This document shows, piece after piece, positions 33,313-61,041 of a stretch of 64,000 bases of DNA. Origin of the DNA: Procambarus clarkii. Lineage: Eukaryota; Arthropoda; Malacostraca; Decapoda; Cambaridae. Under the pieces are notes generated by a model. The model saw only the letters and a list, made by a program, of their open reading frames with translations. It was not told where the DNA came from and ran no database searches. Every line of letters begins with the position of its first letter. The stretch's first letter is position 1. The position numbers and the translations under genes were made by a program. The stretch covers positions 40,405,730-40,469,729 of the forward strand of contig NC_091160.1 in the NCBI RefSeq assembly GCF_040958095.1. Direction: 5' to 3'.

Positions 33313-33918
33313 CTAATTGTTGATGGGCTTACAGACAGGATTCACTTGTGTATGTCTCCATACCGGGGTCCTCAGGCGAGATTTCTTGTTTCTCCCAATC
33401 AGCACGATGAAGATTATTGTGTTGACGGACATGAGACAAGCATAGAAGAAGGCTTCGTGAGAGGCCCGGTGCTTGAAGGCCCCCGTGGCAGAGCTCAGGC
33501 TTGTTAGTCCTGCAAAGAGCCACAAGCCGAGAGCAATTGTGAAGAGATTGGCTGCCTGCAGTGAAGACTTCATGGCCATCGGGGCCTGCGAGTAAGCAAA
33601 GTCCATGCCAGAGACTGTGAAGAGGACATCGCCGATGGTGATGAGGACGTACTGGGGAAGGAGCCACACCATGTGGACGTTTGCAGGGGCCGTCATGGGG
33701 AAGAGGAAGACGTCGGTGGTGGTGATGACGATGTCGTACACACCGTCCTGGTACACTGCAGCCTCCCCAACTTCCACCTCTTCCACCATCACCTTGTACT
33801 CCTGGGGACTGATGCGCTGGAACTCCGTCTTTCCCTCCAGGAGCTGGAAGTTGTGGAGGATGGTGTCGTACGTGAGCGTCACGTTGAGCTCGTTGTGCGC
33901 AGGCGCCAACACCCGCAC
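33313..33918 (-). CDS. Transporter copy 1 exon 5 (residues 482-682 and stop)
   Basis: 606 nt. Acceptor ccctgacag. Second half of the extracellular domain, TM10-TM12, and a C-terminal tail that differs in frame from copy 2. Confidence 0.85.
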   Translation of the reverse strand: MRVLAPAHNELNVTLTYDTILHNFQLLEGKTEFQRISPQEYKVMVEEVEVGEAAVYQDGVYDIVITTTDVFLFPMTAPANVHMVWLLPQYVLITIGDVLFTVSGMDFAYSQAPMAMKSSLQAANLFTIALGLWLFAGLTSLSSATGAFKHRASHEAFFYACLMSVNTIIFIVLIGRNKKSRLRTPVWRHTQVNPVCKPINN

Positions 33919-58700: not shown

Positions 58701-61041
58701 CGGTCCTTATCCCAGGTCTTGGTGACCGCGTATGCAACGCAGCGAACTGCTCTTATCATCATTTTGTCTGGGAGCCCCTCCTTGTAGTGCGACCTTCCTG
58801 TAATATTACAAAAACATAACAACTAATAGAGACAATGTTAGAGAATTAAAACACACAGATATCGCATTAACGTGATCCACTAGGGAAATGAGGTGGAGGC
58901 GAACCTACGACCTTGGCGTTGTCAAGCCTCATACTCAACCACTAGACCATCGATGACTTGTAAAAGTCATACAACCGGATTTCTACTGAAATCACAGGAA
59001 GTATGAAGGCCCCTACTGAAGCCAGTCCAAGTTTTACGAATAATCCACAAGCACTCAGGTGGAAAGGAAGAGTGGTCCCTTCACCGTACGCCCCAACAAC
59101 AATAACTTCAACACACCGTACGTAATAACTGTGGTGTTACGTACGACCCACAAGCACTTCCTGTGATTTCCTTGAAAATCAAGTTGTATGACTTTTACAA
59201 GTCAACGGTGGTCTAGTGGTAAATTATGAGGCTTGACAATGCTAAAGTCGTAAGTTCGTGTCCTCCTCATTACCCTAGTGGATTTATTCATTTTCTGAAA
59301 GAATTAATTCCACAGCTGACTTAATGGTGTACACGGTGTGCACTACAGTAGGGAAATCAGCTTGTAAATGCAAGAGTACACACACTACGGTTGTACACAA
59401 TATGGATGCAGAACCATACAGCACAGGAACGTTGTATACCATACAAATTGAATAGATCGAATAATAATGACCCGAAATGGTTGACAAAAAAGCTGAAGAA
59501 CGTTATAGGTAGAAAGAGAGCTTGGTACAAAAGGATTTGTACCAGTTTAACAAGAATTCGTACAATTGGTTAGAAATGTTAAAAAAAGAGATAAGGAGGG
59601 CAAAAAGAAACTATGAAGTTCGCATTGCAGGGCTAGCAAAGACAAATCCTAAAGGATTTTATTCAGTTATATTTAACAAAGATTAGGGAAAGAATAGGTC
59701 CATTATAAACTGAGACAGGTTAGATAACTGATAATGATGAAGAGATGAGTAGTACATACAGAAATCACAATAGTGTGATGCATCAAATGAACAAATCCAC
59801 AAGGGCCGTGACGAGGATTCGAACCTACGTCCGAGAGCATCCCAGACGCTGCCTTAATCGACTGAGCTACGACATGGTAAAAGAATTGCAACCAGAAGTT
59901 CTACTGAACTTACTTAGATCCTGCAGCCTCTCCGAGACACAAACCAGGGTTTTACACAATTTCCCCCATGCACCCGAGCTATGTCAATAGGCCGTTCTAC
60001 CTCTCCGCCCTTACTTAATTACACACAGATCTCACAATAGCGTGATGCATCAAATGAATCCAAGATCCTTGCAGGATCCAAGTAAGTTTAGTAGAACTTC
60101 TGGTGTGGTCTTGACCACAGCTTGTGGTCAATGAGAACGCCAAGGAATTTGACATCTACTATGTTACAAATTTGGGTATTGTTTATCCTGAGATTTATTT
60201 GATTTGAGGATTTATTGCTAAACAAAATATAGAAAGTTTTGTCAATGTTAAGGGTGAGTTTGTTAGCAATTAGGAGGTTAGCAGTGTTGGGAGGCATTTG
60301 GAAGGTCATTAATGTAGATGAGAGAGAGGAGAGGGCCAAGTATGCAGCTCTGAGGAAAACCAATGTTGATGGGTAGGGTGAGAGAAATTGAATTATTTAC
60401 ACGAATTATTAAAACGTTTTATTAAGTCACCAAATTTGTATTAAAATAGTCCATGGTGCCATCTTGAAAATACATAAACCAATAATAAAAATTGTTTAAA
60501 TATTATTATCCTAGAGGACTGACCAGCAGCGAAGATGACGGTGGAGACAACCATGAGGCCGGCCATTATAATGTAGGAGAGGAAGTAGCAGTCATCACCG
60601 AAGCACTGGACAGAGTCTCGTATTTGAGCTGTTATGAATAGCCCGACGAAGGTGCCAGCGTTAACCATCCAGTAGAAGGCGTTAAAGAACCTGTAGCAGA
60701 AATATAAAGTTAAGAGAATGCTAAGATGACAACTTACCAGTTTTCTGGTTTATGTGCAAAAAACGAATTAATAACTCCATCTAACCTCTCCTCTGATGAA
60801 CCTCTCCCACTTTAACATACCTCTTCTGTTGCTCCCGTTGTTCTGGGACTTTGAACTGGTCGGCCCCGAGGGAGGTGTATGCAGCTTTCATGAGCCCTGT
60901 GCAGACACCCATCACCAGCATGCCCAAGATTGCTGTAAATTTGGCGGCGCTGAAGGAGGCCATGATGGGGGTGACCGAAGAGAGGGTAAAGATGGCGGCG
61001 CCCACTGTGCACCCGCAGCACATCAGGAACACCGTGCGAGC
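55073..61041 (-). CDS. POT/PTR2 (SLC15) family transporter, copy 2, exons 2-5
   Basis: Exons 61041-60821, 60690-60524, 58797-57995 and 55714-55073 (stop) have the same lengths and phases as copy 1 exons 2-4 and a longer last exon. No stops or frameshifts, and splice sites are intact. GADQF, the PTR2 signature helix and [11 protein letters not shown] are kept. TM7 reads FPLFNTLYYH where copy 1 has [10 protein letters not shown]. The C-terminus runs 12 residues longer than copy 1 and ends NPTFVM. Exon 1 is not found up to 64000; copy 1 has a 6.6 kb first intron, so it may lie outside the window or be absent. Same strand as copy 1, about 9.4 kb upstream of its start: a tandem duplicate. Confidence 0.82.
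55898..57295 (+). mobile_element. I-like LINE 3' half inserted in intron 4 of copy 2
   Basis: RNase H start IIYTDGSLHRTTGAAGSAVV (56137), LQTELFALLLAVKC, then SIYHHTIMQEEPHIYGLSI and CQQNY-HTLRHYVMECKK with stops, ending gcataataaatgaactaacc. Absent from the matching intron of copy 1, so it post-dates the duplication or was lost there. Confidence 0.7.
57405..57490. repeat. 27-bp triplication
   Basis: gagccgcatgcactctggag plus tgagggt three times, in intron 4 of copy 2. Confidence 0.9.
57995..58797 (-). CDS. Transporter copy 2 exon 4
   Basis: 803 nt. Acceptor atattacag, donor CCAAA/gtgagt. Differences from copy 1 concentrate in TM7-TM8; the extracellular part differs at only about four positions. 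Confidence 0.86.
58860..59400. repeat. Inverted pair of tRNA-like SINEs, intron 3 of copy 2
   Basis: ggtggtctagtggtaaatta (right) against its complement near 58930 (left). Same location and structure as 35636-36190 in copy 1. Confidence 0.65.
59400..59755 (+). mobile_element. CR1-like LINE fragment (EN-RT linker)
   Basis: Reads DPKWLTKKLKNVIGRKRAWY, then broken KEIRRAKRNYEVRIAGLAK and KTETGQITDNDEEM-like text. Confidence 0.55.
59755..60075 (-). mobile_element. tRNA-derived SINE with fold-back partner
   Basis: Minus head ccatgtcgtagctcagtcga, B box taggttcgaatcctcgtc (59804-59880), tail tttgttcatttgatgcatca. The adjoining 59880-60060 matches the 1985-2310 fold-back repeat. Confidence 0.65.
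60085..60395 (-). mobile_element. LINE RT fragment
   Basis: [20 protein letters not shown] and [11 protein letters not shown] on the minus strand; same family as 48961-49860, truncated at both ends. Confidence 0.65.
60524..60690 (-). CDS. Transporter copy 2 exon 3
   Basis: 167 nt. Only two residues differ from copy 1 (FFNAF for FFYAF, TFVG for TFAG). Confidence 0.83.
60821..61041 (-). CDS. Transporter copy 2 exon 2
   Basis: 221 nt. Acceptor cctcatacag, donor AAGAG/gtatgt. About 11 of 74 residues differ from copy 1; GADQF kept. Confidence 0.82.

Follow-up and report, generated by a model that had tools for sequence, protein, structure and literature searches.

Two PepT-type transporter genes in the window

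A stretch of 64,000 nucleotides from the crayfish Procambarus clarkii (NC_091160.1, positions 40,405,730 to 40,469,729 of the forward strand; hereafter the window) contains, between positions 33313 and 61041, two minus-strand genes of the POT/SLC15 transporter family, here called A and B. Their splice signals are consistent and the reading frames are open over all exons within the window. Gene A has five exons with consistent splice sites and an open frame of 682 residues. For gene B, exons 2 to 5 are located in the window and amount to 610 open residues; its exon 1 lies beyond the window, with the nearest upstream match at C11:40482480-40482731 (L049). A third copy inside the window was not detected by tblastn at E 0.01. 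Matches to Pfam PF00854 of 226 and 214 bits, compared to a gathering cut-off of 27, place the genes in the POT/PTR2 (SLC15) family, and the closest solved relatives of gene A are PepT2 and PepT1.

Transmembrane helices (TM) were numbered by alignment to PepT1/PepT2 together with general knowledge of the PepT1 topology. According to this alignment, an insert of approximately 187 codons, the extracellular domain (ECD), is situated between TM9 and TM10 and is surrounded by both helix bundles. Exon 1 of gene A (45370-45621; 84 amino acids) encodes TM1-2, and its protein has a 100% identical match at C11:38149712-38149963. TM3-4 are encoded by exon 2 (38564-38784 in A, 60821-61041 in B) and TM5-6 by exon 3 (37952-38118 and 60524-60690). 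Exon 4 (34743-35545 and 57995-58797), to which the PF00854 match was assigned in both genes, comprises a loop, TM7-9 and the first lobe of the ECD (codons 371-481; 34743-35075 in A, 57995-58327 in B). Intron 4 lies inside the ECD (33919-34742 and 55715-57994). Exon 5 (33313-33918 and 55073-55714) starts with lobe 2 of the ECD (codons 482-557; 33691-33918 in A, 55487-55714 in B), which is followed by TM10-12 and a tail that belongs to a short class in A and to a long class in B. An AlphaFold2 model of ECD lobe 1 alone reached a predicted local distance difference test (pLDDT) value of 40; it was set aside and gives no support for an immunoglobulin-like fold. The ECD alone had no match among the PDB sequences at E values up to 10.

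Divergence between genes A and B

Over 566 ungapped aligned codons, A and B differ at 42 amino acids, which were placed on the helices by alignment only. Eleven of the differences are found in exon 2, two in exon 3, nine in TM7-8 and nine in TM10-11 (codons 558-624; 33490-33690 in A, 55286-55486 in B). Within the 187 codons of the ECD there are four, all of them in exon 4: lobe 1 shows four replacements and no silent change, lobe 2 no replacement and a single silent change. An earlier note on this DNA, in which the differences had been counted by eye, gave these numbers correctly, with about ten instead of nine for TM7-8, but it did not list the seven further differences in the loop before TM7. 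The deficit of the ECD is beyond chance for amino acids (P 0.008) as well as for silent changes (P 0.027), when compared with the lowest count in any window of 187 codons in each of 20,000 shuffles. By contrast, TM10-11 carry ten replacement changes in nine codons, well above the ECD (P 0.0004), and no silent change. With PepT1 as outgroup, faster change in B than in A was not significant (12 to 4, P 0.08).

Silent divergence (dS) was 0.008 in the ECD compared to 0.082 elsewhere (Fisher P 0.002), and replacement divergence (dN) was 0.009 compared to 0.051. Fourfold sites differed at 1/97 positions in the ECD, compared to 14/172 in the remaining coding sequence, with codons 351-370 counted in neither set and the limit at codon 351 picked after the data had been seen. 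Both dN and dS vary along the gene and a uniform divergence is rejected, as the earlier note had anticipated. The note had left it open whether the ECD is constrained or gene-converted and had taken a low dS in this domain as a sign of conversion; the observed value is of this kind rather than the one that simple constraint would give.

The introns allow the silent rates to be compared with noncoding sequence. In the alignable parts of intron 4, that is within the ECD, 72 of 629 aligned sites differ (about 11%), compared to 1/97 fourfold sites of the ECD itself (P 0.0004). The fourfold sites of the remaining coding sequence did not differ in rate from the introns (P 0.42), whose blocks had been trimmed by eye where identity faded. 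A model with two states of silent divergence along the gene (rates of 0.7% and 15.6%) was superior to a single rate, with a likelihood ratio (LR) of 39.5 compared to a maximum of 11.9 in 150 shuffles; when intron flanks of 60 or 100 bp were used, the observed LR was reached in 0/100 shuffles. One stretch of low divergence begins at the end of intron 4, covers lobe 2 and TM10-11 and ends at codon 624. Others are located around exon 2/intron 2, in exon 3, where 0/25 fourfold sites differ, and within intron 4. Due to these stretches beyond the ECD, the homogenized zone must be larger than the domain. At the exon 4/intron 4 border its edge is sharp, since divergence between A and B returns within about 8-12 bases; the exon 5-side edge of intron 4 is not sharp. 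The sharp edge could result from constraint on exonic silent sites in lobe 1, from separate tracts or from an RNA template. Taken together, the silent sites form a mosaic in which functional sites lie in a diverged segment, a pattern expected of converted paralogues with a selected peak of divergence.

A large family of related genes

A and B are not an isolated pair. In the genome of 4.03 Gb, at least 28 loci possess this exon 4: C16 carries 16 of them (one matched in part), C11 seven, among them A and B, and C36 five; the whole-genome match lists for exon 4 and exon 1 are lower bounds. Two fragments on C1 were left out, as were L039 and L040 (C82:9.996-10.008 Mb), weak matches that represent a separate POT gene of the same genome, distant from the A/B family. 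The family exons were read by homology and most of them align to A without gaps. After nine loci had been collapsed at <=0.6% difference and L032 had been dropped because of stops, 18 genes remained. The class tests and trees are based on the 16 of these with a complete exon 4 and exon 5; all four exons are available for 12.

On C11, the genes form two clusters 2.3 Mb apart (38.11-38.20 and 40.44-40.50 Mb) that share three matching genes in identical order. The twin genes differ at 22, 6 and 5 of 1725 exon bases, and for A and its twin 9 of the 22 differences fall into TM10-12. The cluster at 38.11-38.20 Mb contains a fourth gene (L009), whose counterpart was not found in the window. The paired clusters reflect either a recent segmental duplication or a retained haplotype. 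The near-copy of B located at C11:38.16 Mb (L011:6755-7639) has a doubled exon 2, whose two identical copies are separated by 666 bases; a partial match to exon 3 (50%) lies in this interval.

The C-terminal tails of the family belong to two main classes, a long one (..DNPTFVM or ..FVMERSV; 55073-55180 in B) and a short one in another reading frame (..PVWRHTQ..INN; 33313-33390 in A), and a further short variant is present in L019 and L027. Since the tail classes are common to whole clades, the short tail goes back to an old change and is not a fresh defect of gene A.

Across the 18 genes, silent diversity (piS) was 0.033 in the ECD and 0.076 elsewhere, replacement diversity (piN) 0.014 and 0.033. 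The ratio piN/piS is therefore equal inside (0.42) and outside the ECD (0.44; 0.32-0.60), which means that the similarity of the ECDs stems mainly from a lower level of all change, plus an added constraint on lobe 2. Of the two halves, lobe 1 showed the lower piS (0.020) and a piN/piS of 0.87, while the ratio of lobe 2 was 0.15. It is thus very unlikely that the ECD was preserved by purifying selection on the protein, for instance on account of a shared partner, and without any exchange. The low ratio of lobe 2 would suit such an explanation, but it requires a normal dS between A and B, whereas the silent sites of the ECD are as depleted as its replacement sites. The equal ratios inside and outside the domain, the high value of lobe 1 and the loss of class structure at silent sites described below also speak against it. 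Constraint, the other option of the earlier note, was for this reason discarded as main cause of the likeness, although lobe 2 by itself is constrained.

Another explanation is relaxed constraint, in which many copies would be decaying and the differences in the helices would be noise. In favor of decay, the nearest exon 1 to gene B (L049) has a TGA at codon 4, L032 contains two in-frame stops in exon 4, for several loci one or more exons remained unmatched in the stretches examined, and the ratio of replacement to silent divergence (omega) between A and B is 0.66 overall. On the other hand, the TGA in L049 is followed by an in-frame Met13; all exon-1 rows read have this Met, at which translation of exons 1 of the gene B type may in fact start. 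The reading frames and splice sites of A and of exons 2-5 of B are undamaged, the family-wide piN/piS is 0.42 inside and 0.44 outside the ECD, and the differences hit pocket residues more than expected. We regard decay as quite unlikely. The TGA at codon 4 also occurs in L050, a near-copy of L049, and in L061 the first ATG is replaced by AAG.

Class structure inside and outside the ECD

By the TM7 pocket stretch (codons 285-290; 35316-35333 in A, 58568-58585 in B) the family is divided into two classes, which have W/F/Q or N/Y/H at codons 285, 288 and 290. Gene A (W285, F288, Q290) belongs to the W class and gene B (N285, T286, Y288, H290) to the N class, which was found on three scaffolds. 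With four N and 12 W genes among the 16 analyzed, the silent fixation index (Fst) was 0.41 in TM7-9 (P 0.0015) and 0.03 in the ECD (P 0.22), with a confidence interval of 0.10-0.61 for the difference. When the genes were grouped by long versus short tail, the values were 0.32 and 0.045, respectively. Intron 4 showed class structure throughout the family, both in its first 120 bases (Fst 0.28, P 0.04) and in its last 100 bases (0.27, P 0.01); its first part exists in two deep haplotypes that are shared by W and N genes.

In the TM7-9 tree, the N class is a clade (98/96) and another branch (96/97) coincides with the long tail (6/6 vs 0/10). In the ECD tree the N class is scattered, with four changes as in shuffles, and A is located near B. 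By the approximately unbiased (AU) test, the TM7-9 data reject the ECD tree (5e-8), which is also rejected by the TM10-12 data (2e-4), while the TM7-9 tree is retained by the latter (0.10). The ECD data reject the TM10-12 tree (0.0009). As neither the ECD tree nor the TM10-12 tree is well resolved (no starred branch in either), their rejection says little. Singleton variants account for 46/62 sites in the ECD and 27/79 in TM7-9 (P 3e-6), and the four-gamete test was failed by 1214 of 3240 informative site pairs.

These data bear on a third explanation, by which the silent sites of lobe 1 evolve slowly through codon or RNA constraint or a low mutation rate, so that the low dS would not indicate exchange. 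The change within about 8-12 bases at the exon 4/intron 4 border of A and B agrees with it, as do the deep haplotypes and the class structure kept by the adjoining intron 4. However, a merely slow ECD would have kept a proportional class structure, and the drop in Fst from 0.41 to 0.03 thus points to exchange. Moreover, stretches of low divergence also occur inside introns, and the remaining coding fourfold sites match the introns in rate. Slow silent sites are consequently considered an unlikely cause.

Coupling residues and cargo pocket

For PepT2, the residues E53, E56, R57, H87, D317 and E622 are described as important for transport (PMC11265797). In gene A, these places are occupied by Cys, Glu, Arg, Ala, Tyr and Asp, respectively. 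Like mammalian PepT1 and PepT2 (SLC15A1 and SLC15A2), it possesses the PF00854 domain, an ECD between TM9 and TM10, the Asn pair, Lys and Arg of the pocket and the second Glu of the ExxER motif. What separates the crayfish genes from the mammalian transporters is the lack of the first Glu of ExxER, of the TM2 His and of the TM7 Asp. The first Glu is replaced by Cys, as in the CxxER of gene A, or by Tyr in 22/22 exon-1 rows, which were read from 19 loci (at least 26 loci matched). The Arg at the R57 place is kept in 21/22 rows, L056 being the one without it. At the position of the TM2 His (PepT1 His57, PepT2 His87), 21/22 rows have Ala61, and L058 is out of frame there and unreadable. TM7 was read in 25 of the 28 loci, and in these the position of the TM7 Asp (PepT1 D298, PepT2 D317) is occupied by Tyr289 (Phe in L015).

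Eleven pocket residues of PepT2 have been named (PMC8565842), nine of which are comparable between A and B. Four of the nine differ, corresponding to PepT1 W294 (W in A, N in B), F297 (F/Y), E595 (D/E) and V626 (I/V). This is an excess compared to all codons (P 0.0025) and to non-ECD codons (P 0.0076). Alignment to PepT2 itself identified the same residues; the overlapping set of pocket residues named in PMC11464717 was not used for the counts. Codons 285, 288, 290 and 582 are the sites that separate the N and W classes perfectly, and two of these four are on the pocket list (P 0.004). In TM10, gene A has D578 and T582, gene B E578 and L582. N285 is combined with L582 in 4/4 N genes and in 0/12 W genes, though the genes are not independent.

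Other sequences associated with the genes

In intron 1 of gene A, endonuclease- and reverse-transcriptase-like frames were identified (40105-43124), which are presumably the remains of an element resembling non-long-terminal-repeat retrotransposons. Similar frames are present at 48964-49859 and 31718-32344. Intron 3 of gene A contains a tandem repeat (37273-37800) with a unit of roughly 27-54 bases by eye (ctacggtgtcatttgggactaatatg..). A search for relatives of exon 4 in viral contigs yielded 23 pattern matches, none of which was confirmed.

Discussion

On the basis of the sequence data, A and B are members of a large PepT-type (SLC15, POT) transporter family, part of it arranged in tandem, in which the ECD has probably been homogenized by exchange, while the helices before the ECD and the C-terminal end have kept older classes and the pocket has diverged. 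The exchange would have been gene conversion, or unequal crossing-over of equivalent outcome, and would have homogenized the ECD recently and across the family. The older classes would be most distinct in TM7 at the pocket, where W285/F288/Q290 and N285/Y288/H290 are matched at a single TM10 site by L582, which occurs only in the N class. The copies would thus share an outer domain with a common partner or a common role in trafficking, and selection would remove exchanges by which pocket classes are mixed. This pattern suggests that the copies may handle different cargo, and hence take different substrates, behind a common outside face.

Several results weigh against this explanation or restrict it. 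Homogenization of the ECD by conversion, as proposed in the earlier note, is supported by the very low dS, the unseparated classes, the preponderance of singletons and the mixed tree, yet a GENECONV-style test on silent codons of 12 genes gave no significant pair (best global P 0.24), and hence neither a donor nor a tract. A residual separation of the classes at silent sites is left in lobe 1 (Fst 0.16, P 0.03). The homogenized zone is not the ECD alone, since the silent sites of TM10-11 are also without class structure (Fst 0.07, P 0.20), and the Fst of 0.51 in TM12 derives from 26 codons only. The two flanks of the ECD disagree in part, as the TM10-12 tree, in which support for the N class is only 58/26, is likewise rejected on the TM7-9 data (AU 1e-5). 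The ECD data reject neither the TM7-9 tree (AU 0.08) nor an N clade (AU 0.067). With silent changes only, the contrast in singletons is weaker (16/22 in the ECD vs 10/24 in TM7-9, P 0.04), and 333/1326 site pairs within TM7-9 fail the four-gamete test as well. Nor do the data demonstrate positive selection, given the overall omega between A and B and a replacement excess in TM10-11 that reached P 0.07 when set against the silent sites of TM10-11 and 0.04 when set against those of the tract. Finally, the divergence of the pocket suggested in the earlier note holds for the residues that differ between A and B and for the class-defining sites but not for the family as a whole, where the variability of pocket residues does not significantly exceed that of other non-ECD residues (P 0.14, 0.07).

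The distribution of change differs from that in mammalian PepT1 and PepT2. The mammalian ECD is described as the faster-changing part, with 22% identity between the solved ECDs of PepT1 and PepT2 (PMC4597091), whereas the transporter cores of the human proteins are about 65% identical (PMC8565842). In the crayfish genes, the ECD is the uniform part. Swapping or removing the ECD of PepT2 did not change the affinity for glycyl-sarcosine (Gly-Sar), and mammalian PepT ECDs interact with trypsin (PMC4597091). A common partner of the crayfish ECDs would be plausible by analogy only. That divergence is held at selected sites under conversion is already known from the human red and green opsins (PMC3924837), which are likewise tandem paralogues that conversion has homogenized while functional sites stayed divergent. 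In contrast to the opsins as presented there, a large family and not a pair is affected in the crayfish, the exonic ECD is homogenized while its inner intron has diverged, and the functional role of the diverged sites is putative. The atypical bacterial POTs DtpC and DtpD also have an altered E1xxE2R motif and side-chain pocket, and these changes have been linked to a narrower choice of peptides (PMC9309889). According to the same source, DtpC has both E1 and R altered, whereas the crayfish genes have lost E1 and kept R in all but one copy read; in addition, they differ from DtpC and DtpD in carrying an ECD. A published SLC15 array of this kind was not among the literature matches listed, a search that covered few subscription journals.

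It is conceivable, albeit doubtful, that selection holds the pocket sets together across a freely exchanging ECD, with N285/Y288/H290 encoded by exon 4 and L582 by exon 5 and the combination found on three scaffolds. This SLC15 clade, depleted of proton sites, would then constitute a modular repertoire in which different pockets are combined with a single common outer domain. Exchange may in part have been templated by spliced RNA, because deep haplotypes persist in intron 4, within the ECD.

If homogenization of the ECD by exchange is the correct explanation, a nutrient-transporter family would have diversified its cargo pocket while its outer domain was held common, which is the reverse of the situation in mammalian PepT1 and PepT2. 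The family provides natural pocket variants, with Trp replaced by Asn at the position of PepT1 W294 and Glu by Asp at that of E595, and it forms a clade that lacks three residues considered important for transport by PepT2. Hence, these pocket variants and the depleted clade would make specificity and coupling testable on closely matched proteins.

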